From Hymenobacter gelipurpurascens (GTDB lineage Bacteria > Bacteroidota > Bacteroidia > Cytophagales > Hymenobacteraceae): a stretch of 64,000 bases of DNA. This document shows positions 1-64,000 of the stretch, piece by piece. The position numbers were made by a program, and so were the translations under genes. How positions within the stretch are numbered: the first letter of the stretch is position 1; every line of letters begins with the position of its first letter. Location: positions 1,240,001 to 1,304,000 of the forward strand of contig NZ_FYEW01000002.1 in NCBI RefSeq assembly GCF_900187375.1. Reading direction: 5' to 3'. The notes beneath the pieces are model-generated. The model was not told where the DNA came from, made no database searches, and saw only the letters and a program-made list of their open reading frames with translations.

Positions 1-1452
1 GCCGCCCACACTGATTTGAGTGGAGCGGAGGGCTACCGCTTCGTAGAGGTTTTCGCGCAGATTGGGGTTGCGGCTGATACGTTTGGTACCCACCGAGGCC
101 TGTCCGCCCGCCAGCAAACCCCGCCGGGGCAGGTAGGGGTCATCGAGTGTGTTCCAGCTGTAGTCGAGGCCGTAAGAGTTGAACTCGGAGTCGATGTTAT
201 CGGGTAGGCCACTGGTGTACACGGATAGCGCGGCCGAGTCGGCGAGGAGGCGGGAGCTGCGGCGCTCCGTGAAGAAGGCCACGCGGCCGGCCCGTGCCGT
301 GGGGTAAGTCATCTGTAAGCGCGGCCGAATGGTGAGGAACTGGTCGTTTTGCTTGAGCAGGTTGAAGGTGCCACCCAGTTCCAGCGGCGTCCCGAAGAAG
401 TTTGGGTGCACGTACTGCGCATCCAGCAACTGCGAGGAAGCATCGAGCTTGCGCCACTGCAGTCCGATGCCTTTGCCGCCGCCCTTGATGTTGCGCAGGT
501 TGATGGTTACATCGCCGGTAATCTGCACGCGCTTCTGGCCTACCCCGGGGTTCGGGTTGGGCAGCACGCCCACAATGGCATCAAACTGACTGGCGGCGCG
601 GTCTTCGAGCAGTAGATATACGCGGGCTTTTCCGAGCGCAAACCGCACTTCGGGCTCGGCCTTGAGGTGCAGATACGGCAGCTGACGCAGGCGCCGAGCC
701 GCTTCCTGCACTTTTTGCTGACTGTAGGGCTGGCTAGGGAAAATCTGAAGGTAGCGCGTCAGGAAGCCCACGCGGGTTTTGGTTTTACCAACTATCTGGA
801 TGGAATCGAACACGACGGCCGGACCGCGCTGCAACACAATACGGCCTGCCACTTCTGCCCCGCGCAGCTCCAGCGAGTCGAGCGTAACCGTTGCGAAGGG
901 GAAACCCTGGTTCTCGGCTTCGTGCAGAATATTCTCCTGGAGTTGCGCCCACTCTTTGGGCTGGAAGGGCTGCCCCCGAAACAGCTTTTCGCGGTAGCCG
1001 GCCCGCGTCAGCAGCCCGTCGCCAAGGTTGCCGTTGCGCAGCTGTGCCCACTGGAATTTCTCGCCCACGTACAGCCGCACCCGCAAGGAGTCGTGGCCCC
1101 AGCGCATTTCATCGGCCGAGGCCGTGAGGTAGGCATCGGCCTGCAAAGCCAGCAGCAGGTCGCGCAGCTCCCGAACAGCAGCGGCAGAATCGGGCAGCAC
1201 TTTGCGGTAGCGGTAGCGCCGTATGGTCTCCTGGTCAGCTGGTTCCGTCCCCAGCACCAGCGCTACTGGCCTACGCGGTGGCAACGGCACGCGCACCGTA
1301 GAATCGGGCCGCTGGACTGGCCTAGCCGGCGCCGGCAAGGTTTGCAGCGAGGGTTGGGCCAGCGTATTCGGGGTGGTTTGGGCGCGCGCCTGGCCTAGGC
1401 CACTCAGGAGCCAGCAGCTCAGCAGACCAAGAAAGAGGAGGCGGGCGTACAT
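1..1452 (-). CDS. BamA/TamA-like outer-membrane assembly protein, 3' end cut by window edge
   Basis: This reverse-strand frame is open from the ATG at 1450-1452 to the window edge (484 codons, no stop), so the C-terminus is missing. Residues 1-25 are a signal peptide ending ARAQ, followed by a proline-rich linker (about 26-50). The middle reads like POTRA modules: a conserved VGEKFQWAQL stretch and a second unit with the pattern VFDSIQIVGKTKTRVGFLTR near residue 220. The last part has the alternating polar/aromatic pattern of an outer-membrane beta-barrel (NLRNIKGGGKGIGLQWRKL). Proteins of this Omp85 type fold barrels or export proteins at the outer membrane. It diverges from hemW with about 120 bp between starts. 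The Omp85 assignment is fairly secure; whether it is BamA itself is doubtful, because no other bam gene is nearby. Confidence 0.8.
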   Translation of the reverse strand, partial: MYARLLFLGLLSCWLLSGLGQARAQTTPNTLAQPSLQTLPAPARPVQRPDSTVRVPLPPRRPVALVLGTEPADQETIRRYRYRKVLPDSAAAVRELRDLLLALQADAYLTASADEMRWGHDSLRVRLYVGEKFQWAQLRNGNLGDGLLTRAGYREKLFRGQPFQPKEWAQLQENILHEAENQGFPFATVTLDSLELRGAEVAGRIVLQRGPAVVFDSIQIVGKTKTRVGFLTRYLQIFPSQPYSQQKVQEAARRLRQLPYLHLKAEPEVRFALGKARVYLLLEDRAASQFDAIVGVLPNPNPGVGQKRVQITGDVTINLRNIKGGGKGIGLQWRKLDASSQLLDAQYVHPNFFGTPLELGGTFNLLKQNDQFLTIRPRLQMTYPTARAGRVAFFTERRSSRLLADSAALSVYTSGLPDNIDSEFNSYGLDYSWNTLDDPYLPRRGLLAGGQASVGTKRISRNPNLRENLYEAVALRSTQISVGG

Positions 1453-1571
1453 TTGGGAACTGAAACGCAGAATTGCGCTTTTAATTTCCCGAAAGTTACT
1501 TCTTCCAGTTCCATCCCGCTCATTCCCCTGATTCACAGAATCCTTGGGGAATACGGTTGGCCTCGCCCTTC

Positions 1572-2711
1572 ATGTCCGGCCTCTACCTCCACATTCCCTT
1601 CTGCAAACAAGCCTGCCACTACTGCGACTTCCACTTCAGCACCTCTATGGCGCTGAAAGGCCGTTTGGTAGAAGCAATGGTGCGGGAAATTGAGCTGCGC
1701 CGCGACTATCTGGGCCCCGCCGCGCACATCAACACTATCTACTTCGGAGGCGGCACGCCTTCTCTGCTGACGGGGGCGGAACTGGACACCCTTTTCGAGG
1801 CCATACACCGCAACTTCTCGGTTGCCCCCGACGCGGAAATCACGCTGGAGGCTAACCCCGACGACCTCACGGCCCCAAAGCTGCGGGAGCTAGCCGCCTC
1901 GCCCATCAACCGCCTGAGCATAGGCCTACAGACCTTTCATGAGCCGCATCTGCGCCTGATGAACCGCGCCCACTCCGGTGAAGAGTCGCGGGTGTGCGTG
2001 CAGCTGGCGCAGGATGCCGGCTTCGAGAATATCTCGGTAGATCTGATTTACGGCGTACCCGCCGAGGGCCACGGCATCTGGCTCCACGATATGGCCATAG
2101 CGTTTGGGCTGGGCGTACCGCACCTTTCCTGCTACGCCCTCACCATTGAGCCCGACACCGTATTTGGCCGGCAGCTGACGAAAGGCAAGTTTCTGGCGGC
2201 CCCCGAAGAGTTTGTGGCCCAGCAGTTTGAGATGCTGCTGCAGGAAATAGACCGCCACGGCTACCAGCAGTACGAAATCAGCAACTTCTGCCAGCCCGGC
2301 CGTGAGTCGCGCCACAACTCGGCGTATTGGCGCGGCGTGCCGTATTTGGGCCTCGGCCCCAGCGCCCACTCTTTCAATGGGCACAGCCGGCAGTTCAACG
2401 TCGCCAACAACCCACACTATGTGCAGGCCGTGCTGGAGCGCCATGAGGTACCGGCCACCGTGGAGCACCTCTCCCTCACCGACCGCGCCAACGAGTACCT
2501 CATGACCAGCCTGCGCACGGCCCAGGGCTGCGACCTGGGCCACCTTCGGGATGTGCTGGGCGTGGATTTGTTGGGCCCCCGTGCCCAGTATCTGCAGGAG
2601 CTGCAACGCATCGGGTGGGCCACCCTGAGCCCGGCGCATGTACTTACGCTCACCAACCAGGGCAAGCTCCTGGCCGACCAGATTACGCTGGAGCTGTTTC
2701 AGGCCGAGTAG
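1572..2711 (+). CDS. hemW: Radical SAM heme chaperone HemW
   Basis: This 379-residue protein belongs to the HemW family, once annotated as oxygen-independent coproporphyrinogen III oxidase, which inserts heme into membrane proteins such as respiratory enzymes. The start GLYLHIPFCKQACHYCDFHF carries the CxxxCxxC iron-sulfur motif (Cys11, 15, 18 from the ATG at 1572). This is followed by the SAM-binding YFGGGTPSLL motif and the later SVDLIYGVP and SNFCQPGRESRHN blocks typical of the family. The length matches the family. The frame can be read upstream to a TTG at 1557, but ATG 1572 gives the usual N-terminus. The gene stands alone and diverges from the Omp85-like gene. Confidence 0.95.
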   Translation: MSGLYLHIPFCKQACHYCDFHFSTSMALKGRLVEAMVREIELRRDYLGPAAHINTIYFGGGTPSLLTGAELDTLFEAIHRNFSVAPDAEITLEANPDDLTAPKLRELAASPINRLSIGLQTFHEPHLRLMNRAHSGEESRVCVQLAQDAGFENISVDLIYGVPAEGHGIWLHDMAIAFGLGVPHLSCYALTIEPDTVFGRQLTKGKFLAAPEEFVAQQFEMLLQEIDRHGYQQYEISNFCQPGRESRHNSAYWRGVPYLGLGPSAHSFNGHSRQFNVANNPHYVQAVLERHEVPATVEHLSLTDRANEYLMTSLRTAQGCDLGHLRDVLGVDLLGPRAQYLQELQRIGWATLSPAHVLTLTNQGKLLADQITLELFQAE

Positions 2712-2985
2712 TAGCCCGAAGCAGCTGTTTCGTATGTACTGCTGGCATTCCAGACAGCCAGAAATCGGCACGTTGGTTCTTGCGGCTACTAAATAGCAGC
2801 CGCCTACTCAGTCACTTAAGCGAAAGGCCACTCTTTTTTGCCGGAATAACGCCTGGTTGCCGCGCCAAAAGTCCTACTTTCCCTTTCCCATTTCGGGCTA
2901 GCCAAGGAAAGCCACAGGCCTATCAACTGCCGCCTAGGCCACTTCCTGCGCCCTGCCGAGTGTATGCCGCAACCATCCTGCTGTT

Positions 2986-3480: not shown

Positions 3481-3482
3481 GG

Positions 3483-3668
3483 GGGCAATGAAGTGACGAG
3501 GTGATGAAGTGACAGGCCAAATGGTACATCGTCTGGAGGGGAATCACAGGCTCTTGTCACGCTGGCGAGACTGGCCTAGAACTATGTTACCTCTCGACCG
3601 TCATGCTTCATCACGGCCTATCATTTCACTACTCACTCCGTCCCCTCATCACTTCCCCTTCATTGCCC
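3483..3668. repeat. Intergenic imperfect inverted repeat with TGGCCTAG at its centre
   Basis: The outer ends are a perfect 11-bp inverted repeat (GGGCAATGAAG at 3483-3493 and its complement at 3658-3668). The arms continue imperfectly through TGA-rich sequence such as GTGATGAAGTGAC. The centre (3571-3580) is CTGGCCTAGA, the motif that also occupies the loops of other intergenic hairpins in this window. It fills almost the whole gap between two co-directional genes. Confidence 0.6.
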
Positions 3669-3669: not shown

Positions 3670-4347
3670 ATGATGTACCTCATTCCTGGCCTGGGTGCCG
3701 ATGAGCGCGTATTTCAGAACCTGCAGCCGCTGCTGCAGGGAGAAACGCAGGTGTTGCAGTGGCTTACCCCCGAACCCGATGAGACATTGCCGCAGTATGC
3801 GGCGCGTATGGCCGCTCGCATTCCGCTAGGCCAGTCGGGACTGCTGGTGGGCGTGTCGTTTGGTGGGATGGTGGCCCTGGAAATCACGCGGATGCGGCCG
3901 GAAATGCGCACCGTACTTATTTCCAGCATTCCGGATTCCAGCTGCCTACCGCCGCTGCTGCGCCTGATCCGGGCTACCGGCGTGTACCGCTTGGTGCCGC
4001 CCCAGATGCTAAAGCTGTTTCCGCGGGCCGGGCAGTGGTATTTCGGGGTGAAGCAGAAAGAGTATCCGCTGTTCAAGGAGATTCTGCGCGACATGGAGCC
4101 CGTGTATACCAAGTGGGCCATCGACCGGCTTATGCACTGGGACAGCACCATCGCCGGCCGCAGCACCCAGATCCTGGGCACCCACGACCGGGTGTTTCCG
4201 CCCGGCCCTACGCCTGTTGAGCACCTGATCCGAGGCGGCGGCCACTTCATGGTCATCAGCCACGCCCCGGAAATTGCCCAGATTTTGAATAAACTAGCCG
4301 CCGAGCAGACCAATAGGGCGGCAACCTCTCAGCAAAACGCTGTTTAA
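3670..4347 (+). CDS. Alpha/beta-fold hydrolase
   Basis: A 225-residue cytoplasmic alpha/beta hydrolase. The N-terminal IPGLGADERVF block is the usual oxyanion-hole region. The nucleophile elbow GVSFGG places Ser63 as nucleophile, with Asp173 (GTHDRVFPP) and His192 (GGGHFMV) completing a plausible triad. This compact form resembles esterase-like hydrolases without a large cap domain; the substrate is unknown. Two ATG codons lie in tandem at 3670 and 3673. The stop is only 10 bp before the next gene, so the hydrolase and the cyclase-family enzyme are probably co-transcribed. Confidence 0.85.
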   Translation: MMYLIPGLGADERVFQNLQPLLQGETQVLQWLTPEPDETLPQYAARMAARIPLGQSGLLVGVSFGGMVALEITRMRPEMRTVLISSIPDSSCLPPLLRLIRATGVYRLVPPQMLKLFPRAGQWYFGVKQKEYPLFKEILRDMEPVYTKWAIDRLMHWDSTIAGRSTQILGTHDRVFPPGPTPVEHLIRGGGHFMVISHAPEIAQILNKLAAEQTNRAATSQQNAV

Positions 4348-4357: not shown

Positions 4358-5131
4358 ATGTTTGCCACCTATCCCTACCAGGGCCGCACTTATTCCTTCA
4401 ACCCACAGGCGCCGCTGGATATTTCCCTGCCCCTGGCGCCCGGCGAGAACCAGGTGAATTGCTTCTGGGCTGAGCCTGTGCAGTTTGATGTGATTCGGGT
4501 GGGTAGCTTTGTGGGCAGCGTGGCGGATGGCGGCAGTACCAACTACAAGCGCGTGCACGTTACGCCCCACGGCAACGGCACCCACACTGAGTGCTTCGGA
4601 CATATCTCGCCGGAGCCCCAGGCCACGCTCAACCGCTGCCTGCGCCGGTTCCTGTTCGTGGCACGGCTGATTTCGGTGCAGCCCCGCCCTCAGCCCAACG
4701 GTGACCTGGTCGTCATGCTGGACGATTTCCGGCGTGAGCTGGAAGGCGGCCCGTATGCGGACATTGCTCCCGAAGCAGTTATTCTGCGCACCCTGCCAAA
4801 CCACAAAGCCAAGCGTGCCCGTCAGTATTCCGGCACCAACCCCACCTATCTGGAGCCCGCCCTAGGCCAGTACCTCGCCGATCAGCACATCGAGCATTTG
4901 TTGCTGGACCTGCCCAGCGTAGATCGGGAGGAGGACGAAGGCGCCCTATTGGCCCACCACGGCTTTTGGCAGTACCCTCACGCCACGCGCCACACTTCCA
5001 CCATCACCGAGCTCATCTTCGTGCCCGATGAGGTAGAGGATGGCTTATTCCTGCTGAATCTGCAAATCACGAGTCTAGAGCTTGATGCCAGCCCTAGCAA
5101 ACCTGTGCTCTACAGTTTAGGTGGCGCGTAG
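4358..5131 (+). CDS. Cyclase-family protein (kynurenine-formamidase-like metal hydrolase)
   Basis: This 257-residue protein contains the signature of the cyclase/KynB-type family: HGNGTHTE at residues 71-78 (His71, His76, Glu78), the expected metal-binding cluster. A later HHGFWQYPHATRHTSTITEL block holds further histidines. Family members hydrolyse formylkynurenine, isatin or related amides. The substrate here cannot be read from sequence, and no tryptophan-degradation genes are nearby. It follows the alpha/beta hydrolase by 10 bp, which implies translational coupling. The stop TAG is part of a TAGGCC motif copy. Confidence 0.85.
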   Translation: MFATYPYQGRTYSFNPQAPLDISLPLAPGENQVNCFWAEPVQFDVIRVGSFVGSVADGGSTNYKRVHVTPHGNGTHTECFGHISPEPQATLNRCLRRFLFVARLISVQPRPQPNGDLVVMLDDFRRELEGGPYADIAPEAVILRTLPNHKAKRARQYSGTNPTYLEPALGQYLADQHIEHLLLDLPSVDREEDEGALLAHHGFWQYPHATRHTSTITELIFVPDEVEDGLFLLNLQITSLELDASPSKPVLYSLGGA

Positions 5132-5170
5132 GCCACTTCTTTTGCGCCTTCGTTATCACCACCCCACCCA

Positions 5171-7471: not shown

Positions 7472-7526
7472 TCGACTGACTGCGAGGCAATACTGGCCTA
7501 GGCCAGTCCTCCATGCAACTTATACC

Positions 7527-8833: not shown

Positions 8834-8940
8834 AGCACGTCATCCTGAGCTTGCGAAGGATCTTGTCACGCGTGAACAACTGGCCTAGAACGGTTTGTGC
8901 TGACGTGACAAGATCCTTCGCAAGCTCAGGATGACGTGCT
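8834..8940. repeat. Perfect 37-bp inverted repeat, GTCATCCTGAGC family (left flank of GIY-YIG gene)
   Basis: Arms at 8834-8870 and 8904-8940 are exact reverse complements over 37 bp, with a 33-nt loop that contains CTGGCCTAGAAC. The arm core is CACGTCATCCTGAGCTTGCG followed by AAGGATCTTGTCACG. A near-identical hairpin lies at 9332-9434, so the GIY-YIG gene is bracketed by two copies. It could also act as a strong terminator for the upstream gene. Confidence 0.9.
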
Positions 8941-9840: not shown

Positions 9841-12222
9841 ATGTTGGTACTCAAACGCGACGGCCGCCGCGAATCCGTGAAATTTGATAAAGTCACGGCG
9901 CGTATTGAAAAGCTCTGCTACGGGCTGAATCAGAACTTCATTTCGCCGATTGAGGTAGCCAAGAAGGTTATCGATGGTATTTATGATGGCGTGACGACGG
10001 TAGAGCTCGACAACCTGGCAGCTGAAACCGCTGCTTCGCTCACCACCAAGCACCCCGACTACGCTATTCTGGCGGCGCGCATTGCCGTAAGCAACCTGCA
10101 CAAGGTGACCAGCAAGTCGTTCAGCAGCACCATGAAGCGGCTGCACACCTATGAGGACCCCAAGACCGGCGAGAATGCTTCGCTGATTGCCCAGGACGTG
10201 TGGGAAATCGTGCACGCCAACGCCGCTACGCTGGACTCGGCTATTATCTATGACCGCGATTATAACTACGATTACTTCGGCTTCAAGACGCTGGAGCGTT
10301 CCTACCTGCTGCGCCTCGATGGCAAAGTAGTAGAGCGGCCCCAGCACATGATTATGCGCGTGGCCGTGGGCATTCACAAAGCCGACATTGCCGCCGCCAT
10401 CGAGACCTACAACCTCATGAGCGAGCGGTGGTTCACGCACGCTACGCCTACGCTGTTCAACGCTGGTACGCCCAAGCCCCAGCTCAGCTCGTGCTTCCTG
10501 CTCACGATGAAGGACGACTCCATTGAGGGCATTTATGACACGCTGAAGAACTGCGCCCTGATTTCGCAGTCTGCCGGTGGTATTGGCCTGGCTGTGCACA
10601 ATGTGCGCGCCACGGGCTCGTACATCAAAGGCACCAACGGCACTTCTAACGGCCTCACGCCGATGCTGAAGGTGTTCAATGACACGGCTCGCTACGTGGA
10701 CCAGGGCGGTGGCAAGCGTAAAGGCGCTTTCGCGATTTATCTGGAGCCCTGGCACGCCGATATCTTCGACTTCCTGGACCTCAAGAAAAACCACGGCAAG
10801 GAGGAGATGCGCGCCCGCGACTTGTTCTTTGCCCTCTGGACGCCCGACTTGTTCATGAAGCGCGTGGAAGCCAACGGCGACTGGACGCTGATGTGCCCCA
10901 ACGAGTGCCCTGGCCTAGACGAGTGCTACGGCGAGGAGTTCGAGAAGCTCTACACCAAGTATGAGCGCGATGGCCGTGGCCGTAAGACCATTAAGGCCCA
11001 GGAGCTGTGGTTTGCCATTCTGGAAAGCCAGACCGAGACCGGCACGCCCTACATGCTGTTCAAGGACGCTGCCAACAACAAGAGCAACCAGAAGAACCTC
11101 GGTACCATTAAGAGCTCCAACCTCTGCACCGAGATTATGGAGTACACCGACGAGAACGAAATTGCCGTGTGCAACCTCGCCTCGCTGGCCCTGCCCCGCT
11201 ACGTACGCCCCGACGAATCGGGCGCGCTCATCTTCGACCACCAGAAGCTCTACGACGTTACGTACCACGCCACGATGAACCTGAACAAGGTCATCGACAT
11301 CAACTACTACCCCGTAATTGAGGCGGAGCGCAGCAACCGTCGCCACCGCCCCATCGGGCTGGGTGTGCAGGGCCTCGCCGATACGTTTATTGCCCTGCGC
11401 ATGCCGTTTGAAAGCGACGAAGCCAGCGGCCTGAACAAGGACATCTTCGAGACCATTTACTTCGCGGCCATGACGGCCTCTAAGGACCTCGCCATGCGCG
11501 ACGACCACTACGAGACGTTCCCTGGCTCGCCGCTAAGCAAGGGCCAGTTCCAGTTCGATATGTGGGGCGTAACGCCTGAGTCGGGCCGCTGGGATTGGGA
11601 AACGCTGCGCGCTCAGGTAATGGAGCACGGCGTACGCAACTCTCTGCTGGTAGCACCTATGCCTACGGCTTCTACGGCCCAGATTCTGGGTAATAACGAG
11701 TCGTTTGAGCCCTACACCTCCAACATTTATGTGCGCCGCGTGCTGAGCGGGGAGTTCATGGTGGTGAACAAGCACCTGCTCAAGGACCTAGTAAAGCTAG
11801 GCCTGTGGAACGACCAGATGAAGAACGCCATCATTGCCGCCAACGGCTCGGTGCAGGACATCCCCAGCATTCCGCAGAACATCAAGGACCTGTACAAGAC
11901 GGTGTGGGAGATTTCGCAGCGCCGCATCATTGATATGTCGGCTGACCGCGGTGCGTACATCTGCCAGAGCCAGAGCCTGAACCTGCACGTGCTGAACGTG
12001 AACTTCGGCAAGCTCACCAGCATGCACTTCCATAGCTGGAAGAAGGGCCTGAAAACCGGCATGTACTACCTGCGCACCAAAGCCGCCGTGGATGCCATCA
12101 AGTTCACGGTGCAGAAACAAGCCGCTGAGACCCTGGAGCCGCTGAACGTATCGGCCCAGAACGCCTCAGACATGGCCTGCTCCCTAGATAACCCAGACGC
12201 CTGCGAGGCCTGCGGTTCGTAA
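9841..12222 (+). CDS. nrdA: Class Ia ribonucleotide reductase, large (alpha) subunit
   Basis: This 793-residue protein is the catalytic subunit that reduces ribonucleoside diphosphates. Residues 1-90 form an ATP-cone, the allosteric activity site. The active site is intact: Cys218 (QLSSCFLL), Asn427, Cys429 and Glu431 (NLCTEI). The numbering is the same as in mammalian R1, which marks it as the eukaryote-like subtype. Loop-2 specificity residues lie in [20 protein letters not shown]. The C-terminal tail DACEACGS supplies the CxxC redox shuttle. A strong terminator follows. nrdB is 2.4 kb upstream, not adjacent. Confidence 0.98.
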
Positions 12223-13896: not shown

Positions 13897-14499
13897 ATGA
13901 AATACAACGCTACTCTCTCGCTATTGCTGGGCCTAACGCTGACCTTTACCGCTGGCTGCGATAAAGATGATCGGGAAGACACGCCCGAGCCTCTGCCGGA
14001 GGCTTCCGCTACCTATAGCCGGTCTATTGTATATCAAGACAACGGGCAGCGCCGGGATACCACGTTTCAGGCGAAGCAGCTGGAGGAGTTTGTTTCGCAG
14101 ACCACCCAGAGCTTAGTCGTGGGCGTGCAACCCACCACCACTACCGAGGGCATCAACTTCACCTTCGACCGCACTAAGCTGCCCGCGGCTCTCACCGGCA
14201 CCTACACCCTCAAAACCCTCCGCGACCGGGCCCTCGACGCGGACCTGACCTACTATTACGACCTGCCCGAAAGCCGGGGCGGCGGTACCATCCTATATTT
14301 CAGCAGCATACAGCACATCAGCGGCAGCTTCTCCATCAGCAGCTACGATGCGAAGCGGCAGCTCCTAAGCGGCACCTACACCGCCACCCTAACCGGTGCC
14401 AGCGACCCCACAGTGGCCTACAGCACCTTCCCCAAGCGCGCGTGCAACATCACCGTTACGGGCACCTTTGCCAACGTGCCCCTCAAGCAAGTAGACTAG
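13897..14499 (+). CDS. Hypothetical lipoprotein
   Basis: A 200-residue exported lipoprotein. Residues 1-20 are a signal peptide ending FTAG, with lipobox Cys21 (TAGC) followed by DKDD. The aspartates after the cysteine are compatible with Bacteroidetes surface-lipoprotein export, but this is only suggestive. The rest is beta-rich, with threonine-rich strands (TYTLKTLRDRALDADLTYYYD) resembling small beta-sandwich lipoproteins. I do not recognise a named domain. GC content returns to the local norm after the AT-rich gene upstream. Confidence 0.75.
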   Translation: MKYNATLSLLLGLTLTFTAGCDKDDREDTPEPLPEASATYSRSIVYQDNGQRRDTTFQAKQLEEFVSQTTQSLVVGVQPTTTTEGINFTFDRTKLPAALTGTYTLKTLRDRALDADLTYYYDLPESRGGGTILYFSSIQHISGSFSISSYDAKRQLLSGTYTATLTGASDPTVAYSTFPKRACNITVTGTFANVPLKQVD

Positions 14500-14522
14500 C
14501 GCCCCTAGGCCACTCCCGAACG

Positions 14523-14559: not shown

Positions 14560-14747
14560 TGTAAAACAGCCGCTGTTTAGTGGCGCCCGTTGCCTGCAGT
14601 GAAGAGCTTTTCCAGCGTGGCACCGCTTCTCCAACAGCGTAGTGGCCTAGGCAGGCACATGACACCCAGTATCCTGTACGTCGGTGAGGGGCGTTGCTGC
14701 GTACCAGTAGGAGCCCGGTAGGTGCCGGACAATCCTCCTGTTTTCGT

Positions 14748-15836: not shown

Positions 15837-16216
15837 ATACCAGGGAAGTAGGGAGAGAGAAGCAACCGACACCAAAACCAGCAAACCAATTTCAGTGCAA
15901 CAGCCGGGGCAAATATGAGGCCAAAATAGAGGAAATATCCTAGTTACAGAACAACAGTATTTCCAGATCAGGTTGAGAGACGCCCGACTTATGGAGCTGG
16001 TAGTGCATCAGGCCGCGGATCTAAGCATCTCTGTTACTTCCCTAGGCCAGTTGGCAGTTTGGCTGTGGGATGGGTAGGTTGGCTTCTTTTCGATTAAGGC
16101 GCATCTTGCCGGGCGTATTCGTTCTGCGGGTTGCCGGGCCTTCTGGCAGGTAACCATCTTCCTTTTTATTTCCCTCCTGGCTACCGGCCAAGTTTCGCCG
16201 CCGTGGTCTTCCTGTT
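15837..16216. other. Spacer of 380 bp, no gene seen
   Basis: This divergent intergenic region contains a TAGGCC motif copy at about 16043 and AT-rich stretches (15900-15960). No coding frame, RNA fold or clear promoter could be supported. Confidence 0.5.
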
Positions 16217-18652: not shown

Positions 18653-18698
18653 TATCTGATAGGTGTAAATCAGGCTTGCCGAGAGTAGGCCACTTTCC

Positions 18699-19172: not shown

Positions 19173-19534
19173 AGGGGGCGGCTGATAATGTGTGCGATTT
19201 TGAACAAATGAGAACTACTACAGCCTGGTAGTTTCAAAGCGCAGGCCACTTTCATAATCATCTTTACACAAGCACGTTACTGCAAATCCAGCAATCAACC
19301 ACAGTGGTAAATACGTCCGATACCGGACGCACTGTTCAGTTATAGCGAGGCCCGCTTTCTGAGCCGGTGGCTACCCAGTACTGGCCTAGGCCAGTGGCTA
19401 CTGCTACAAGTGGCTTTACCAGGAAACCCAAGAGACTAGGAAGAGAAGCCTAGGGAAGCAACACTGGCCTACAAACCATAGAGTTGCGGGGCTATTTGTG
19501 TATCTTCCGTAGTTGGTCAGCAGCTGCTTCTGCC
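19173..19534. other. Divergent spacer of 360 bp, no gene seen
   Basis: It contains a fully palindromic copy of the iterated motif, CTGGCCTAGGCCAGT, near 19382, and a second GGCCTA at about 19466. A frame reaches upstream to 19484, but the better start for the next gene is 19535. No promoter match is convincing. Confidence 0.5.
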
Positions 19535-46193: not shown

Positions 46194-46349
46194 GGGCGAC
46201 GACAAAGCCCCAGGGGCCCGCTCACCGGCACAGCGTCGGAAGAATCATCGGACCGCAAACGGAGCCATTGGGGTCCGTTGGGGGTAAGTATAACGAACTA
46301 CTCGCCGCAAAGGTCCGGCCAGGTTCTGAGTTTTTCGTGAAGTACTGGC

Positions 46350-48987: not shown

Positions 48988-49224
48988 AGGCAGAAAGGAT
49001 GGTACCCTTTCCCTATACGCAACCTCCCAAAAAGCGGCGCAGCCAGCCAAAGATGGCCCGAAGAGTGGCCTATACGCCCCTTATTTCAGACACAATGTCC
49101 TGAAAACAACCGGAATGGCTATAATAACGGCCATTGTGTCTGCAACTCCCCGCATAGTGGCCTAGAACCAGGTTGGTACAGGGTTTGCATTTAGTCCGGC
49201 ATAACCTTAGAAAGGAACCCAACC

Positions 49225-49605
49225 ATGAATCTTATCAGCAAGGACTTCATTCACAACATTGCTCCGCAGTTAGACTTGCTCAACACGTTGGGCGGCGGTA
49301 TTGCGCAGGCAGTGATGCGCGTGGACCAGCAGGAGAAAGGAATCGTGGTACGTGTGGCGCTGCCTTCGGTCAGCCCCGATAACTTCCACGTGCTTCTCAA
49401 CAACAACCGCCTGACGGTGTACGCCGACTTCCGCCACACGCCCGAAGACGAGTTGTCGGCACCGCTGTTCAGCCACCAGCTGAAGCTCACGGCCAACCTC
49501 GACGCGAGCCGGGTAGATGCGGTGTTTGAAGGCCAGGAGCTGCAGGTGCGCATTCCGTTCCGTGACCCTGCTCAGCAACGCGAAATCACTATTAAGCAGC
49601 GCTAG
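49225..49605 (+). CDS. Divergent Hsp20/CS-fold protein
   Basis: A 126-residue soluble protein. The central IVVRVALPSVSPDNFHVLLN, NRLTVYAD, HQLKLTANLDASRVDAVFEG and QELQVRIPFRDP blocks follow the strand order of an alpha-crystallin domain. Compared with the Hsp20 at 23010 the flanks are short, and the usual GVLxVxxPK is replaced by QELQVRIPF. It may be a co-chaperone or p23/CS-like protein. The gene is isolated. The stop TAG is the TAG of a TAGGCC motif. Confidence 0.75.
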   Translation: MNLISKDFIHNIAPQLDLLNTLGGGIAQAVMRVDQQEKGIVVRVALPSVSPDNFHVLLNNNRLTVYADFRHTPEDELSAPLFSHQLKLTANLDASRVDAVFEGQELQVRIPFRDPAQQREITIKQR

Positions 49606-49698
49606 GCCACTCAGCCGCTGCTCTATAACGTCGGGACCGACCGACCTCATGGTTTCACCAGCCACTGCTAGCCGCAGTGGCTTTTTCATGCGCGGTGG

Positions 49699-50025
49699 TT
49701 ACTGGTTGAACAGCGGCCACAGTAACAGAAACCCCGTTAGCAGGGACAGATAAAACCAGCCCATGAGCTGCCCGCGGTGGCGGCGGGGCATCCGGTTGCT
49801 GAGTACCAGCACGGCCACCACATCCAGGGCCAGGTGCAGCAGCAGAAATACCACCGTTTTCACCCAGTTGCTCACAATCGTATTCTCGGGCTGCATTTGA
49901 TCCTGGATGCCCAGCCCCGAGGTAGCCAGCTTCAGTACCTGGTAGGCCACTATCTCAAACAGCAGAAACAAGCCAAACCCCACCAGCAATGCCAAAGGAC
50001 CCGTTTTCTTGGTGATTTCAGCCAT
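49699..50025 (-). CDS. Small membrane protein
   Basis: From ATG 50025, a 108-residue protein with three hydrophobic segments: LALLVGFGLFLLFEIVAYQV (about 10-30), VFLLLHLALDVVAVLVL (about 60-77) and FYLSLLTGFLLLWPLF (about 92-107). No named domain. A copy of the GTGAAGTTGTGA repeat lies immediately upstream of the start codon (50031-50068). Confidence 0.6.
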   Translation of the reverse strand: MAEITKKTGPLALLVGFGLFLLFEIVAYQVLKLATSGLGIQDQMQPENTIVSNWVKTVVFLLLHLALDVVAVLVLSNRMPRRHRGQLMGWFYLSLLTGFLLLWPLFNQ

Positions 50026-50068: not shown

Positions 50069-50247
50069 CCATTGGGGAGGCGCGCGTGGCCAACTGATAA
50101 GCCGCCCATATCCATTACAGGAGTAAAGGCTGTTCAGTGAACCACAATTCCGTGCAACGATAAGGAAAGATTGGCTGCGCTATCCTTAGGGTGCTTCGTT
50201 GTTCTTCCTCGCAATGACAAACGGGTGGTCTAGGCCAGTAGAATGGT

Positions 50248-50280: not shown

Positions 50281-50548
50281 TTTTCCCAAGCACCTCGGCC
50301 GTGCGGGTCTGGATGTAGAGCTCCTCCACTTTGGCGCGGGCCCAGGGCGTACGGCGCAGGAAAGTAAGGCTGGATTTGATGCTGGGGTCCACGGCGAAGC
50401 AGTTGATGCGGATGCGGCGGTCCAGTTCCGGCCAGCCGTAGTGGCCTACCAGATACTCCAGAATCTGGGCCAGCTTGATGCCGTGCAGCTCCCGGATCAG
50501 GTGACCAGATTCGTCGCGGGCATCGGCAGAGTTTTGGGCTTCGGGCAT
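50276..50548 (-). CDS. VF530 family (DUF2132) DNA-binding-like protein
   Basis: A 90-residue protein of the VF530 family: [39 protein letters not shown] and [19 protein letters not shown]. The structure known for the family is a compact helical fold, with a suggested DNA-binding role. The length is normal. It is divergent from the GH25 gene, and its stop overlaps the repeat at 50248. Confidence 0.85.
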
Positions 50549-50655
50549 GGCGGCAAGAGAGTGAGTGGCCTACGAAGGTCGGGAAAAGACCGATTCCATC
50601 CGCTTCTTTGGCGGCAGAGGACACGAGAAGAGTGAGCGGGCACGTTACCTTTGGG

Positions 50656-51498
50656 ATGCCGATGCCCACGAAAGTCTCTCGTCCACCTACCCCACGTCGC
50701 CGCGCAACTGCCTGGCGCCGGCCGCTTCTGCTGGCTTTGCTGGCCTTGGTGGTAGGCAGTGCTGTGTTTTATGGGCGCTACTCCCGGCAAGTGAACCGCT
50801 ATGCTCGGCGCGCGTACGCCACTTGGCGCAGCCAACACCTGACTGGCCTGGAGAAGACGCCGCTGCTGGCCGGCTACTCGGTGCACGGCATTGATGTATC
50901 GGCGTATCAGGGCCAAATCAACTGGCCTAGAGTAGCTGAGCATCAGGTGCGGTTTGCGTTCATTAAGGCTTGCGAAGGCGTTACGCTACGCGACCCGCGC
51001 TTCCGCCGCAACTGGGAGCAGGCCCGGGCCGCCGGCGTGTACCGCGGGGCTTATCATTACTTCCAGCCCAACTACGATGGCGCCCAACAGGCCAACCTGT
51101 TTACGCGCACCGTACCGCTGCAGCCCGGCGACCTGCCCCCCGTGCTGGATGTAGAGCACCCCGAGTTTCATGATGTGCTGCAGATGCGCCGCGGCATTGC
51201 TACCTGGCTGCGGCTAGTGGAGCGCCACTATGGCGTGCGGCCCATTTTGTATTCTAACTACAGCTTCTACCGCCGCTATCTGGCCGGCCACTTTGATAAG
51301 TACCCGCTGTGGCTGGCGCACTACGAGGTAGACCAGCCCAAACTGCCCCGCGAAAAATGGATTATCTGGCAACACTCCGATGAGGCCTACATCCCCGGCA
51401 TTCGCGGCACCGTCGATTTCAACGTGTTTCAGGGCAATTTTCAACGACTTTTGGCGCTGCGCATTCCGGAAAAAAGCGCGGTGCCCACTCCTAAATAA
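50656..51498 (+). CDS. GH25 family lysozyme
   Basis: From ATG 50656 (another ATG at 50662), a 280-residue protein. A basic N-terminus is followed by a membrane anchor or uncleaved signal (about 18-36). The GH25 catalytic domain starts with HGIDVSAYQGQINWPRV, where the first Asp is conserved, and continues with FAFIKACEGVTLRDPRF and VLDVEHPEF, which hold the Asp and Glu for hydrolysis of peptidoglycan. The final IWQHSDEAYIPGIRGTVDFN block is also typical. It would cut cell-wall glycan at the periplasmic face. RlpA follows by 11 bp. Confidence 0.9.
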   Translation: MPMPTKVSRPPTPRRRATAWRRPLLLALLALVVGSAVFYGRYSRQVNRYARRAYATWRSQHLTGLEKTPLLAGYSVHGIDVSAYQGQINWPRVAEHQVRFAFIKACEGVTLRDPRFRRNWEQARAAGVYRGAYHYFQPNYDGAQQANLFTRTVPLQPGDLPPVLDVEHPEFHDVLQMRRGIATWLRLVERHYGVRPILYSNYSFYRRYLAGHFDKYPLWLAHYEVDQPKLPREKWIIWQHSDEAYIPGIRGTVDFNVFQGNFQRLLALRIPEKSAVPTPK

Positions 51499-51509: not shown

Positions 51510-51899
51510 ATGCGCGTTTCATTCTGGCTTCGGCTTTCTCACTCGTTTGTGCTGGCAACAGGCCTAGGCCTGTTGGCGGGCTGCGCGAGTAGCTCGGGTA
51601 CCTTCACACAGTCAGGCAAAGCTTCTTTTTACGCCGATAAATTTAACGGCCGCGAAACAGCCAGCGGCACCACCTACCGCCCCAATAAGCTCACCGCAGC
51701 CCACAACACGCTGCCGTTTGGCACGGTAGTACGCGTCACGAATCCGCGCAACAACCGCTCCGTGAAGGTCACCGTTACGGACCGGGGCCCGCACGCCAAA
51801 GGCCGCGTCATTGACCTTTCCAAGAAAGCGGCGCGCAAGATTGGAATTGTAGATGCCGGCGTAGCTCCGGTGGAGCTGAAAGTGGTGGGCCACAAGTAA
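51510..51899 (+). CDS. RlpA-like lytic transglycosylase lipoprotein
   Basis: A 129-residue lipoprotein (lipobox LLAGC, Cys25). The double-psi beta-barrel domain includes GKASFYADKFNGRETASG, LPFGTVVRVTN and VTVTDRGPHAKGRVIDLS, with the conserved catalytic Asp in TDRGP. It lacks a SPOR domain. It acts on peptidoglycan in the envelope. It is 11 bp downstream of the GH25 lysozyme, so the two cell-wall enzymes form an operon. Confidence 0.9.
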   Translation: MRVSFWLRLSHSFVLATGLGLLAGCASSSGTFTQSGKASFYADKFNGRETASGTTYRPNKLTAAHNTLPFGTVVRVTNPRNNRSVKVTVTDRGPHAKGRVIDLSKKAARKIGIVDAGVAPVELKVVGHK

Positions 51900-51944
51900 G
51901 GCTAGGCCACTCTTACTTCGTTTAATTTCCTCATTCTTAGCTAT

Positions 51945-52142: not shown

Positions 52143-52268
52143 CGCCTAGCAGTGGCCTAGCGGCAGAGTACACAACAAGTCAGCTACCAGTTGCGGGAGT
52201 ATGCCCGCGCTTCTGGCGGTTTGCGTGTAGTATGCTTATCTTGACATACTACTAATCGGCCGGTTATC

Positions 52269-54280: not shown

Positions 54281-54443
54281 CCCCGTAGGCCAGTCGTTCA
54301 CTAGCCCAGGGTTTAAACTGGGCTACGGAGCCGCTATAGGCCAGTTAGGCAGCTCCCAGAATGGCCATGTGCTCAGAATGACAAGCGCCGCTAGGCCACC
54401 TGCAAACCACTCTCCTGCCCTTCCTTATTCTTGAAAACAGCTT

Positions 54444-54776
54444 ATGGAAACGCATATCATCACCATCACCTTCCACGATTGCGCTACCCGCTATGGCCTG
54501 AGTGAGGCCGATGTGCGGGAGTTTGTGGAGCTAGGCCTGTTGCAGCCCGCCGCCGATACGCCTGATGCCCTGCTGGAAGAGCCCGACCACGTGGCCCGCC
54601 TGGCTCGCCTGCACCACGAGCTGGGCCTGAGCAAAGACAGCCTGGAAGTGGTGCTGGATATGCGCCAGCGCCTCGTGCTGCTCCAGCAGGAACTGCAGCT
54701 GCAACGAGCCCGTGTGCGGCAGCTGGAACTGTTTCTACGCGGCAGCTCGCCCCTGCAGGATATTGACTTGCGCTAG
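54444..54776 (+). CDS. cbpM: Chaperone modulator CbpM (MerR-like)
   Basis: A 110-residue protein with a MerR-type helix-turn-helix fold: METHIITITFHDCATRYGLS, then DVREFVELGLLQPA, and an amphipathic C-terminal helix (VLLQQELQLQRARVRQLELFL). This is the pattern of CbpM, which inhibits CbpA by binding its J domain. Its place downstream of cbpA in the same direction agrees. The last codons use TAG within a TAGGCC motif. Confidence 0.85.
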   Translation: METHIITITFHDCATRYGLSEADVREFVELGLLQPAADTPDALLEEPDHVARLARLHHELGLSKDSLEVVLDMRQRLVLLQQELQLQRARVRQLELFLRGSSPLQDIDLR

Positions 54777-54906
54777 GCCTCTTTTGCTTCAGCCTACGGT
54801 TGAGCTTACAGGAATGAGCCTGATTTTGTAGGGTATAGCAGTATCCGGAGACGGGGTTGGATATGAGAAGTACAACTTTTCTAGACAACGAGGGTATAAA
54901 GGGCCT

Positions 54907-56524: not shown

Positions 56525-56551
56525 TTCCTGCGACAGGCCTAGGCCACTCCT

Positions 56552-56627: not shown

Positions 56628-56741
56628 AAGACCGTCATGCTGAGCGGAGCCGAAGCATCTCTCCCTCTGGCTAATTATACTGGCCTAGCGGGAATCAACG
56701 AAGCGGTAGAGATGCTTCGGCAAGCTCAGCATGACGGTCTT
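56628..56741. repeat. Inverted repeat, GTCATGCTGAGC family
   Basis: AAGACCGTCATGCTGAGC (left arm from 56628) pairs imperfectly (one length difference) with the right arm ending 56741. The arms include GCCGAAGCATCTCT. The loop has ACTGGCCTAGCGG. It is in the 420-bp spacer between the OmpA and GH97 genes; the rest of that spacer has no other feature. Confidence 0.8.
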
Positions 56742-56866
56742 AAGTGTGCTCTAGGCCACTCTAGACTCTGCATTACCTTGCCGACCCCACCCAAACTGGC
56801 CTAGCTGGTCAATAGCGCACAGGAACCCGGCAACGGCGCGGTAGCAGGTTCCCGGCAAAGAAGTGA

Positions 56867-59095
<2,229 letters not shown>

Positions 59096-59118
59096 GTTTT
59101 ACTGGCCTAGGCCTATAT

Positions 59119-60802: not shown

Positions 60803-60846
60803 CCGTGCCCTAGGCCACTACGACAGGCCTAGCCGAACACTCATTC

Positions 60847-61704: not shown

Positions 61705-61974
61705 TCAAAGGGAGTCGGGAGCGGCGGCAGCTTTAGCAGCTGGGTTTGGCTCCAGCTTCATTTGGCAGACTGGGCACGTGCCCGGCTTATCGCTGGCACT
61801 GCCTTCGCAGCCCATAGGACAGATATAGGCCGCAGTTACTGCCGGAGTGGCTGGCGCAGTTTCCGTCGTAACGGGTTGCTGCTCCGTAGCCGTCTTTTGC
61901 TCGCAGCTGGCAAGCGTGGCCGTCACTACCAGGCCTAGGCCAGTAGCCAGAGCTTTCCAGGAAAATCCTTGCAT
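61705..61974 (-). CDS. Heavy-metal-binding-domain lipoprotein
   Basis: An 89-residue lipoprotein (lipobox LASC, Cys24). The mature part is Thr/Pro-rich and ends with the metal-binding motif AAYICPMGCEGSASDKPGTC then PVCQMKLEP (Cys-Pro-Met ... Pro-x-x-Cys-Pro-x-Cys-x-Met). This matches the heavy-metal binding domain of efflux adaptors and P-type ATPases. It may buffer copper or other metals in the envelope. It overlaps nothing but lies 3 bp after the upstream lipoprotein gene. Confidence 0.85.
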   Translation of the reverse strand: MQGFSWKALATGLGLVVTATLASCEQKTATEQQPVTTETAPATPAVTAAYICPMGCEGSASDKPGTCPVCQMKLEPNPAAKAAAAPDSL

Positions 61975-62424: not shown

Positions 62425-63048
62425 CTAGGCCACCTGGCCAGGCAGCGCGGGCACCAGGTTTTTGCGGCGCATCATGGCCTCAAACAGCTTCTGGTCGTTG
62501 CCGCCTTTAAAAATTTTATCGGGCACCTGCAGGAAGATGGGCGTGTCGAAGGTTTTGGCAGCCCAGCGGCGCCAGCCCGTAATTTCGGCCGGCAGCTCGT
62601 CGGGGCCCTTCAGTGTGAGCAGGTAGCCATCGGCCTCGCGCTTCACATGGCCAATCATGTCCCAGGTCAGGCGCATGCCTTCGCGCTCATTGCGTCGCAG
62701 CACAATCTGCTTGTTATCAAACTCATAGCTGAGCTTTTCAAACAGCGGCTTGCTTTGCTCCATGGTAGTAGCGCCCGTAATCTGAGCGGAGCGGAATAGC
62801 ACGTACAGCAGCGTCAGGACCAGAGCCGAGGCCAGCCACCACCAGGAGGGCCAGATCAGGGCCGGTAACAGGCCTACGGCAAACGGAATGAGGGCATACC
62901 ACCACTCCTTGCGCCACACCCGTCCCATCGCAATGCGGGTGTAAGTGTCGGTGTCGAGTTGGTGCTTCTTGGTGACGATGGCGAGCGGTGAAGCCCCCGA
63001 CTGGGACTGCTGCTGCCGATAGCCGCCGCGTTGGTTAGGGAGTTGCAT
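62425..63048 (-). CDS. YcxB-like membrane-associated hypothetical protein
   Basis: A 207-residue protein. After a Gln/Arg/Gly-rich start (residues 1-18), the sequence SPLAIVTKKHQLDTDTYTRI precedes two hydrophobic segments (about 52-93; YALIPFAVGLLPALIWPSWW). A beta-rich C-terminal domain follows, with FDNKQIVLRRNEREGMRLTW and YLLTLKGPDELPAEITGW. This arrangement resembles the YcxB/PH-like membrane family. Function unknown. It is separated from nadC by a spacer with a degenerate inverted repeat. Confidence 0.65.
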   Translation of the reverse strand: MQLPNQRGGYRQQQSQSGASPLAIVTKKHQLDTDTYTRIAMGRVWRKEWWYALIPFAVGLLPALIWPSWWWLASALVLTLLYVLFRSAQITGATTMEQSKPLFEKLSYEFDNKQIVLRRNEREGMRLTWDMIGHVKREADGYLLTLKGPDELPAEITGWRRWAAKTFDTPIFLQVPDKIFKGGNDQKLFEAMMRRKNLVPALPGQVA

Positions 63049-63070: not shown

Positions 63071-63140
63071 AGTTACCGGCTGCTGGTTACGAGTTAGTAG
63101 TAGAACGATACTAACAACTGGCAACCGGCACCTGGCAACT
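63071..63140. repeat. Degenerate inverted repeat
   Basis: AGTTACCGGCTGCTGGTTAC pairs with GCAACCGGCACCTGGCAACT (63121-63140), imperfectly. It fills the spacer upstream of the gene at 62425. Confidence 0.45.
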
Positions 63141-63142
63141 CA

Positions 63143-64000
63143 TTAAAAAGCTTTTAAGCTGAGGTCGAGGCTCCGGACAGAATACGTGAGGGCACCCACC
63201 GAGATGAAGTCGACGCCGGTGGCGGCTACTTCGGCAATGGTTTGCTCCGTGATGCCGCCGCTGGCCTCCAGGGGATAGCGCCCAGCTACCAGGGCCACGG
63301 CTTCCCGAAGTTGCGTCGGGCCCATATTGTCGAGCATAATCCGGTCTATACCACCTACTTCCAGTACCTGCTGCACCTCCGAGATAGTGCGGGTTTCTAC
63401 TTCAATAGCCAGCTTCCGACCCGTTTTAGCCAAATACTGGTGCGTAGCTTCGATAGCGGGCCTGATGCCGCCGGCATAGTCCACATGATTATCCTTGAGC
63501 ATAATCATATCAAACAGACCGTAGCGGTGGTTTACGCCGCCGCCAATAAGCACGGCCCACTTCTCGCAGAGCCGAAAGTTGGGGGTGGTTTTGCGCGTGT
63601 CGAGCAGGCGGGCCTTGGTGCCGGCTAGTAGGCCAGTCAGGTGCGCCGTTTGGGTGGCAATGCCGCTCATACGCTGCATGCAGTTGAGCACGAGGCGCTC
63701 CGCTGTCAGGATGCTGCGGGCACAGCCTTCCACCGTGAAGGCTACATCACCGTGCTGCACGCGGGCACCATCGGAGAGCAGCTGCGTTACGTGGAGCTCC
63801 GGATCTACCTCCCGGAAGATGAAATGCGCCAACTCCACCCCGGCCAGCACCCCGGCATCCTTCACCAGCAACTGAGCCCTATTGCGCGCATCGGCAGGAA
63901 TAGAGGCCAGCGTAGAATGGTCGCCATCGCCGATATCTTCGGCCAGGGCAGTACGAATGAAAGCGGAAAGAGCTTCCGGAGTGAGGTAGGGCGGGGTTTG
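63143..64000 (-). CDS. nadC: Nicotinate-nucleotide diphosphorylase (carboxylating), 5' end cut
   Basis: NadC makes nicotinic acid mononucleotide from quinolinate and PRPP. The frame is open to the right edge (285 residues visible). The true start is therefore beyond 64000; a start at 63871 would be an artificial TTG. Visible blocks are ALAEDIGDGDHST, LLVKDAGVLAG, VLNCMQRMSGIATQTAHL, ARLLDTRKTTPNFR, KLAIEVETRTISE, IDRIMLDNM and EASGGI. These are the standard family motifs, including the PRPP- and quinolinate-binding Arg/Lys/Glu residues. No other nad gene is in view. Confidence 0.96.
   Translation of the reverse strand, partial: QTPPYLTPEALSAFIRTALAEDIGDGDHSTLASIPADARNRAQLLVKDAGVLAGVELAHFIFREVDPELHVTQLLSDGARVQHGDVAFTVEGCARSILTAERLVLNCMQRMSGIATQTAHLTGLLAGTKARLLDTRKTTPNFRLCEKWAVLIGGGVNHRYGLFDMIMLKDNHVDYAGGIRPAIEATHQYLAKTGRKLAIEVETRTISEVQQVLEVGGIDRIMLDNMGPTQLREAVALVAGRYPLEASGGITEQTIAEVAATGVDFISVGALTYSVRSLDLSLKAF

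Follow-up and report, generated by a model that had tools for sequence, protein, structure and literature searches.

An asymmetric DNA word iterated throughout the genomes of one Hymenobacter clade and its possible role as a mark of self DNA

Hymenobacter appears to offer a natural experiment on what leads certain bacteria to repeat one signal throughout their genomes. The purpose of the highly iterated palindrome HIP1 of cyanobacteria has been debated since the 1990s, and Chi sites are likewise short, over-represented and lineage-specific words, set apart by their strand-biased orientation. Here we describe such an element from a 64-kb stretch of a Hymenobacter gelipurpurascens contig (58% G+C; the whole stretch is called the window below): a DNA word close to (C/G)TAGGCC(A/T)(C/G)T, iterated genome-wide and in a clade-specific manner in four sister Hymenobacter species, the carriers. 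Among the literature matches listed, there was no earlier report of an iterated word in Hymenobacter.

HIP1 reaches 300-2,700 copies per Mb in most cyanobacteria outside one group, and some cyanobacterial genomes hold alternative iterated words that replace one another in relatives (Elhai 2015, PMC4390886). The same article reports at least one candidate methyltransferase in all genomes with such words, counts four HIP1-rich strains without a recognizable CGATCG methyltransferase, and offers a model for the existence of HIP1, not a proof (PMC4390886). For the DNA uptake sequences (DUS) of Neisseriaceae, eight dialects are described that track the core-genome phylogeny, have the core CTG in common and lie in permissive regions, with ComP as the reported DUS-binding protein (Frye et al. 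2013, PMC3630211); DUS are further reported to be conserved and located in permissive sites, many new ones being too diverged from their homologues for point mutation (PMC2397512).

The Hymenobacter word resembles HIP1 in its hundreds of copies per Mb, in its presence in genes and spacers on both strands, and in giving way to other GC-rich words in some relatives. It differs in its asymmetric unit (although four of six other words in the genus are palindromic), in a core of TAGGCC, often CTAG in other clades, instead of GATC, in its host phylum Bacteroidota, and in that none of five DNA-methyltransferase families, nor an MmeI-like enzyme, is common to the carriers. An earlier note on this DNA had likened the motif to HIP1; the likeness holds for behaviour (thousands of copies, both strands, clade specificity, relatives with other words) and fails for the unit itself. 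With DUS and the uptake signal sequences (USS) of Pasteurellaceae, the word shares thousands of asymmetric copies of about 10 letters, strand neutrality, permissive placement (genic flanks are 1-4 points less conserved than random genic DNA) and clade-bound dialects that broadly follow the tree, whereas Hymenobacter is not known to be competent, a PilB/PilT/GspE-type ATPase of type IV pili was found in 0 of 12 Hymenobacter genomes and several words of other clades are palindromic. Chi sites are similarly short, over-represented and lineage-specific, but the carriers show no strand skew and the word is in excess outside genes. Its behaviour matches both the HIP and the DUS/USS kinds, without establishing membership in either.

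A clade-specific word in four Hymenobacter species

The window lies in a genome of 5.06 Mb and 9 contigs (G000), whose ribonucleotide reductase large chain shares 97% identity with the H. rigui protein, the next best named matches being other Hymenobacter. Counted on both strands, TAGGCC has 171 matches in the window against a shuffle mean of 46.8 and a maximum of 61 in 100 shuffles (3.7-fold), the palindrome GGCCTAGGCC occupies 10 places against a shuffle mean of 0.30 (about 30-fold), and CTAGGCC/GGCCTAG occurs in 89 places. The comparison with a Markov model, a check proposed in the earlier note, gave an excess far above the order-3 expectation, led on both strands of the window by TGGCCTAG (65 versus 3.4 expected), CTAGGCCAGT (22 versus 0.18) and CTAGGCCACT (17 versus 0.16). 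Across the whole of G000, GGCCTAGGCC is present 608 times, compared with 12 for the reversed, uncomplemented control word, and CTAGGCCWST 3,162 times, or about 625 per Mb. The iterated TAGGCC/GGCCTA motif that the earlier note had reported across the window is confirmed, and all 23 positions listed there have TAGGCC or GGCCTA within 5 bases; its 15-letter string for 7492 and 19382 also exists, but starts at 7493 and 19381, and one further base turns it into a 16-letter palindrome.

In all four carriers the repeating unit is an asymmetric 9-10-mer, STAGGCCWST, as judged from flank preferences around every TAGGCC (C/G before; A/T, C/G and T after; G000, G018, G137 and G141, 20-104 kb each). The palindrome, which the earlier note gave as a form of the motif, does recur, but consists of two units overlapping head to head. 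When the arms around GGCC are counted over 644 kb from carriers and 780 kb from five non-carrier genomes, CTAGGCCAGT proves enriched 125-fold and CTAGGCCACT 58-fold. The terminal T of the 10-mer is soft, with 39-70 excess near-misses per 100 kb, whereas near-misses at the TAGGCC positions differ from those in non-carriers by -4 to +8 per 100 kb, against 60-114 complete words, so that there is no halo at these positions. The units are randomly spaced, not regularly "every few hundred bases", and no close or distant inverted pairing stands out except the overlapping pairs.

Placement was assessed on gene calls made for this analysis (82% coding), which put 36 of the 74 exact 10-mers of the window between genes, 6 at gene edges and 32 within genes. 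The density of the 10-mer is 0.73 per kb in genes and 3.05 per kb outside them (gene edges included); because it is four times higher outside, the explanation by codon use, which had been named as grounds for rejecting the motif, fails. Between genes the density is 4.0 per kb in convergent, 3.3 in tandem and 2.3 in divergent spacers. Genic copies use both strands equally (49 sense, 61 antisense), from which it follows that the word is read as DNA, and no strand skew appears in 140-184 kb stretches of the four carriers (93/116, 52/56, 61/52 and 61/62). Among the other contigs of G000, the 462-kb C3 has 20 10-mers in the 15 kb examined and the 285-kb, plasmid-like C4 has none in 15 kb; the small contigs C6, C7 and C8 (5.2, 5.0 and 4.5 kb) have 2, 0 and 0. 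Contig C4 is probably a plasmid; plasmid records match it only in an integrase region, which four Hymenobacter plasmids contain, and along 78 bases of a single Burkholderia plasmid.

Across 120 Hymenobacter genomes, G000 included, CTAGGCCWST reaches 3,189 copies in G018, 3,162 in G000, 2,966 in G141 and 1,872 in G137, against 3-116 (median 12) in the other 116, of which 96 have at most 30 copies and 10 have at least 60. The palindrome behaves in the same manner: in 36 other Hymenobacter and 22 same-order genomes, a set without G137 and G141, G018 has 462 copies and the next genome 46. The four carriers form one clade in an 18-genome tree of 5,426 anchored columns (support 84/89) and in reductase-gene trees of 30 genomes (86/98) and 76 genomes (100/98); the branching order inside the clade differs between the anchored tree and one from the reductase gene. 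On the tree, this clade sits among users of a different word, GGGGTAGG.

That word is one of several. A survey of 75 other Hymenobacter genomes, mostly 20-22 kb each, for scattered words far above order-3 expectation recovered the present word in three carriers, CCCTAGGG in G095 (H. polaris) and G021, ACCTAGGT in G066, G133 and G072, GGCTAGCC in G117 and G132, GGGGTAGG in G014 and G034 (weaker in G107, G116, G080, G136 and G120), GGGGCCCC in G091 (44 counts on both strands versus 5.3 expected; weaker in G012; loci L267 and L266) and GGGGCTTT-type words in G010, G119, G102 and G101. By our own grouping 23 of the 75 genomes carry an assigned word; in 52 no word was callable at survey depth, four of these (G008, G016, G115 and G027) having other words at z 10-12. 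The dialects broadly follow the tree: ACCTAGGT, GGGGCTTT and the present word each mark a clade, and GGGGCCCC is confined to one clade of three genomes, within which G113 shows none, while users of CCCTAGGG and GGCTAGCC are interleaved in one clade and GGGGTAGG appears twice. Many of the words contain TAG, but since GGGGCCCC, like GGGGCTTT, lacks it, a TAG core is not common to every word of the genus.

Relative to expectation, GGGGTAGG stands at 1.0-1.5 times in the carrier clade and 2.9-4.3 times in four sisters, and GGGGTAG occurs 79-136 times per 100 kb in G136, G077, G116 and G107 against 20-30 in carriers. In three carriers CTAGGCC is 3.5 times as dense outside genes as inside them; the corresponding ratio is 2.6 for CCCTAGGG, 2.5 for GGGGTAG in G014 and G034, 1.8 and 0.9 for GGGGTAG in sisters, 1.3 for GGGGCCCC, 1.1 for ACCTAGGT and 0.7 for GGCTAGCC; because these ratios vary, a single cause for all words is not claimed. 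Beyond the genus, words at z of at least 10 were seen in 6 of 50 loci (four Pontibacter, one Mucilaginibacter and one Aquirufa), the Pontibacter loci L024-L027 iterating CTATAGTT / ACTATAGT and TTATACTT.

Gain, loss and conservation at aligned sites

For site-by-site comparison, 184 kb of G000 was aligned to 140-180 kb from the three other carriers and from five non-carriers, yielding 55-140 kb of aligned sequence at identities of 0.775-0.811; five shorter loci, partly displayed, were also aligned but lie outside the conservation counts. At aligned G000 sites the 10-mer is kept in 51/107, 49/108 and 47/138 cases in carriers, where permuted control words are kept at 0.19-0.21, and in 3/73, 2/69, 2/77, 0/77 and 0/32 cases in non-carriers, where controls are kept at 0.15-0.19. 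The word is thus conserved at orthologous positions in carriers and nearly absent from them in non-carriers, the opposite of the lack of conservation that the earlier note had named as a refutation.

Gains were counted by parsimony, as a count requiring unanimous outgroups was too sparse (one G000 near-miss, not completed). One-step completions number 6, 9, 7 and 8 on the four carrier lines, 30 in all against 6.1 expected and about five times the rate of control words, compared with 0, 0 and 1 against about 1.5 expected on three non-carrier lines. Carrier lines also show five two-step and four three-step completions (about 1.1 expected), and the short stem of the carrier clade shows three (0.1 expected). 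G141 and G018 share a stem, so that their completions are only partly independent. The step from two mismatches to one (17, 22, 16 and 10 in carriers versus 10.1, 13.3, 10.7 and 10.5 expected; 16, 14 and 7 in non-carriers versus 8.9 each) is no faster in carriers than in non-carriers, from which it follows that the bias acts on completion. By our own arithmetic, a scaled fixation bias of about 4 to 5 matches the fivefold gain as well as the 60-125-fold enrichment. As to a possible decay of the word in one carrier, G137 retains fewer sites, yet its near-miss excess per perfect site resembles that of the other carriers.

The sites arose by substitution at scattered places and not by insertion. 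Over eight genomes compared with G000, a gap spans the whole word in none of 484 coding comparisons and in 3 of 164 intergenic ones, so that the copy-paste process suggested in the earlier note is not supported in the sense of insertion. In the detailed display, which covers, out of 209 sites, the first 45 that had at least three non-carriers aligned, the differences comprise many kinds of substitution, transversions included, within collinear flanks, and a few of the words also occur in non-carriers. Gaps at motif sites looked enriched before they were split by place (up to 17/77). After the split, the intergenic rate equals that of random intergenic DNA in three carriers, and stands at 3/9 in G136, 2/8 in G077, 1/3 in G106, 9/12 in G116 and 10/17 in G107, the last two against 0.23 and 0.27 for random intergenic DNA; the genic rate is slightly above random (0-6 sites per genome), an excess that we attribute, without proof, to dense mismatches. 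Conversion of the sister word in place was also considered: GGGGTA stands in the sister at 0 of 161-174 aligned G000 sites, which, with only about 0.1 expected by density, rules out wholesale conversion of old sites and nothing finer.

Within genes, gains relative to carriers change 0.32-0.35 amino acids per changed base, against 0.23-0.24 in control windows with at least two changes; relative to non-carriers, gains and controls both give 0.26-0.28.

Candidate readers and competing explanations

Two standard answers to how such a word is read, a shared methyltransferase and pilus-based uptake, look unlikely in Hymenobacter. Searches of 20 genomes each found no PF00145 in G000 or G137, no PF01555 in G018, G137 or G141 and no PF07669 in G141; searches of 120 genomes found no PF02384 in G137 and no PF02086 in any of the carriers. 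None of the five families is common to the four carriers, within the limits of family models (the MmeI-like enzyme falls below the PF07669 cut-off), and non-carriers also possess methyltransferases. The reader is therefore not an enzyme of these families shared by all carriers, and the modification suggested in the earlier note is not supported in its simple form; a methyltransferase of another family, or different enzymes of equal specificity in different carriers, may still act on the word. An MmeI-like type IIG methyltransferase of about 1,120 residues (PF20473, PF20466) is patchily distributed in the genus, occurring in G000 (L273:180-3539), G137 (L282) and several non-carriers, among them G080 (L283) and G116 (L286). 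Aligned orthologues from G000, G137 and G116 have nearly identical ends (92-100% over the first 400 columns) and a strongly variable target-recognition region (37-66% over columns 500-800). It was considered as the driver because G000 and G137 share it with a variable target domain, and was ruled out since, in a search of 30 genomes, G141 has no match and G018 only a 25-codon match with stops nearby. A ComEC-family gene was detected in all 20 genomes examined.

What the gain counts establish is a drive in the statistical sense; the nature of its agent has to be deduced. The reading that we favour, at a probability of about 0.4, is that the word marks self DNA and is maintained by a bias specific to it, which probably acts in DNA exchange or repair. 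The word would serve as an address mark for a sequence-specific protein acting in the exchange or repair of chromosomal DNA, and biased recombination or uptake would amount to a molecular drive: segments with the complete word would be favoured in strand exchange, so that words would build up wherever protein coding permits. A change of reader specificity in an ancestor would start a new word and leave the old one to decay.

Several observations weigh against this reading. Losses are about halved in G141 (18/64 versus 37 expected) and G018 (18/63 versus 39) and hardly reduced in G137 (35/79 versus 44), a reduction too modest for a simple bias as strong as the gains imply; the figure for G000 (3/97 versus 28) was set aside, as its construction leans to retention. 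Flanks of genic sites found only in G000 are 3-4 points below random genic conservation, but because flanks of shared sites are likewise 1-4 points below it, there is no special sign of imported divergent segments carrying new sites. A sample of one genome per species does not distinguish weak selection from conversion bias. Moreover, the machinery known to use uptake sequences is missing, given that no PilB/PilT/GspE-type ATPase (PF00437, T2SSE) scored above the cut-off in any of 12 genomes; G132 gave a single weak match under the cut-off, 13 of 14 controls matched, and the search did not extend to pilins or secretin. Additionally, four of the six other assigned words are perfect 8-bp palindromes, which a dimeric binder or a methyltransferase fits better than a pilin-type receptor, and the plasmid-like DNA sampled amounts to 15 kb of one contig only.

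Among the alternatives, a selected binding site, at which a nucleoid, segregation or repair protein binds the word chromosome-wide and each copy is weakly favoured, is possible but doubtful. Near all-or-none recognition, completion and retention above control, orientation-free use at the DNA level and the palindromic words of other clades, which suit a dimer, all accord with it, whereas random spacing and the lack of strand skew ill suit a segregation or loading ruler, and a core chromosome protein would hardly be expected to change its word from clade to clade within a genus. HIP-type methylation, in which the word is the target of a methyltransferase and methyl-directed repair promotes word-creating mutations (the Elhai model), offers the closest behavioural parallel as far as the cyanobacterial report describes words replacing each other in relatives (PMC4390886), and GATC is scarce in parts of Hymenobacter; it is nevertheless improbable in view of the missing common family, the fate of the MmeI-like enzyme in G141 and G018 and the methyltransferases of non-carriers. 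A Chi-like recombination signal for RecBCD/AddAB with lineage-specific specificity would agree with the short, G-rich words of sister lines, GGGGTAGG among them, but is rendered quite improbable by the absence of strand bias in the 140-184 kb stretches of carriers, the excess outside genes and the palindromic forms.

Plain mutational or codon bias, or chance, can point to a number of displayed sites at which carriers differ from their cousins by one base, as in CTG to CTA. Chance and dinucleotide or codon composition are, however, rejected by the shuffles, the order-3 Markov excess, the intergenic density and the fold enrichment over non-carriers, and the many kinds of change, transversions among them, together with the lack of any 10-mer in the plasmid-like sample, leave this explanation very little room. 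Copy-paste insertion of a short element could draw on the intergenic gaps in G116 and G107 and on the slightly raised genic rate, but with so few words gapped as a whole and with collinear flanks at all 45 displayed sites its probability is close to nil.

Returning to the word as a mark of self DNA, a wider proposal is advanced only tentatively and must be regarded as rather unlikely: that Hymenobacter runs a switching self-DNA code, in which several clades each write their own word thousands of times, the predicted reader acts in DNA exchange with neither type IV pili nor a conserved methyltransferase involved, and the word changes when the reader changes. Such a code, if real, would join HIP and DUS/USS as a third kind of self mark written across whole genomes, and a word marking self DNA would also govern gene exchange among Hymenobacter species. 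At least six such words occur within a single genus whose tree is largely resolved, and the aligned DNA blocks of carriers and non-carriers are about 80% identical, so that the origin, maintenance and replacement of the words can be traced at individual sites and a search for the reader gene can start from genes common to carriers and missing in near neighbours.

Word positions and other features of the window

The positions of all palindromes and exact 10-mers in the window are given in Table 1.

Table 1. Palindromes and 10-mer units in window coordinates, with gene context and presence in other genomes where recorded
Feature	Position	Strand	Remarks
Palindrome GGCCTAGGCC	1392..1401		
Palindrome GGCCTAGGCC	7495..7504		two full units 7492-7507
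Palindrome GGCCTAGGCC	19383..19392		two full units 19380-19395
Palindrome GGCCTAGGCC	25311..25320		
Palindrome GGCCTAGGCC	35407..35416		
Palindrome GGCCTAGGCC	46347..46356		
Palindrome GGCCTAGGCC	51561..51570		two full units 51558-51573
Palindrome GGCCTAGGCC	56536..56545		two full units 56533-56548
Palindrome GGCCTAGGCC	59104..59113		
Palindrome GGCCTAGGCC	61932..61941		
10-mer unit	204..213	+	genic
10-mer unit	1265..1274	-	genic
10-mer unit	1316..1325	-	genic
10-mer unit	1395..1404	+	genic
10-mer unit	2934..2943	+	intergenic
10-mer unit	3570..3579	-	intergenic
10-mer unit	3826..3835	+	genic; kept in G141, G018, not G137
10-mer unit	4862..4871	+	genic; kept in G141, G018, G137
10-mer unit	5128..5137	+	gene edge
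10-mer unit	7492..7501	-	intergenic
10-mer unit	7498..7507	+	intergenic
10-mer unit	8879..8888	-	intergenic, within paired repeat
10-mer unit	11797..11806	+	ribonucleotide reductase large-chain gene; kept in G141, G018, G137; also in non-carrier G080
10-mer unit	14412..14421	-	genic; also in non-carriers G136, G077
10-mer unit	14505..14514	+	intergenic
10-mer unit	14641..14650	-	intergenic
10-mer unit	16042..16051	+	intergenic
10-mer unit	16285..16294	-	genic
10-mer unit	18242..18251	+	genic
10-mer unit	18685..18694	+	intergenic
10-mer unit	19380..19389	-	intergenic
10-mer unit	19386..19395	+	intergenic
10-mer unit	19463..19472	-	intergenic
10-mer unit	20486..20495	-	intergenic
10-mer unit	23646..23655	-	intergenic
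10-mer unit	25308..25317	-	intergenic
10-mer unit	25842..25851	+	intergenic
10-mer unit	26249..26258	+	genic
10-mer unit	28356..28365	-	intergenic
10-mer unit	28939..28948	+	genic
10-mer unit	29014..29023	+	genic
10-mer unit	29187..29196	+	gene edge
10-mer unit	30252..30261	-	genic
10-mer unit	30451..30460	-	genic
10-mer unit	31954..31963	+	genic
10-mer unit	32032..32041	+	genic
10-mer unit	33256..33265	+	intergenic
10-mer unit	33289..33298	-	intergenic
10-mer unit	35404..35413	-	genic
10-mer unit	35582..35591	+	intergenic
10-mer unit	36054..36063	+	genic
10-mer unit	40199..40208	-	intergenic
10-mer unit	40405..40414	+	gene edge
10-mer unit	40822..40831	+	genic; 4/4 carriers, 0/5 non-carriers displayed
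10-mer unit	42461..42470	-	genic
10-mer unit	45389..45398	-	genic
10-mer unit	46344..46353	-	gene edge
10-mer unit	49156..49165	-	intergenic
10-mer unit	49602..49611	+	gene edge
10-mer unit	49942..49951	+	genic; also in non-carriers G136, G116
10-mer unit	50230..50239	+	intergenic
10-mer unit	50440..50449	-	genic
10-mer unit	50564..50573	-	intergenic; 4/4 carriers, 0/3 non-carriers displayed
10-mer unit	50921..50930	-	genic
10-mer unit	51558..51567	-	in called gene
10-mer unit	51564..51573	+	in called gene
10-mer unit	51902..51911	+	intergenic; 4/4 carriers
10-mer unit	52151..52160	-	intergenic
10-mer unit	54285..54294	+	intergenic
10-mer unit	54531..54540	+	in called gene
10-mer unit	54773..54782	+	gene edge
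10-mer unit	56533..56542	-	intergenic
10-mer unit	56539..56548	+	intergenic
10-mer unit	56679..56688	-	intergenic
10-mer unit	56751..56760	+	intergenic
10-mer unit	56795..56804	-	intergenic
10-mer unit	56964..56973	+	genic
10-mer unit	57026..57035	-	genic
10-mer unit	59101..59110	-	intergenic
10-mer unit	60810..60819	+	intergenic
10-mer unit	60823..60832	-	intergenic
10-mer unit	61935..61944	+	intergenic
10-mer unit	62868..62877	-	genic
10-mer unit	63628..63637	+	genic

At about 8835-8940 and 9332-9436 the window also contains two inverted pairs of a repeat with TCATCCTGAGCTTGCGAAGGATCTT(G/C)TCACG, which resembles a small palindromic mobile element; the first pair holds the word copy at 8879-8888 near its centre. 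GATC has 65 sites in the window versus 148 expected; in stretches of 16-23 kb from nine Hymenobacter loci (L012, L015 and L017-L023) it is missing or nearly so (0-1 sites versus 35-56 expected). Finally, three adjacent genes for peptidases of family M13 lie on the minus strand at 33347-40253.

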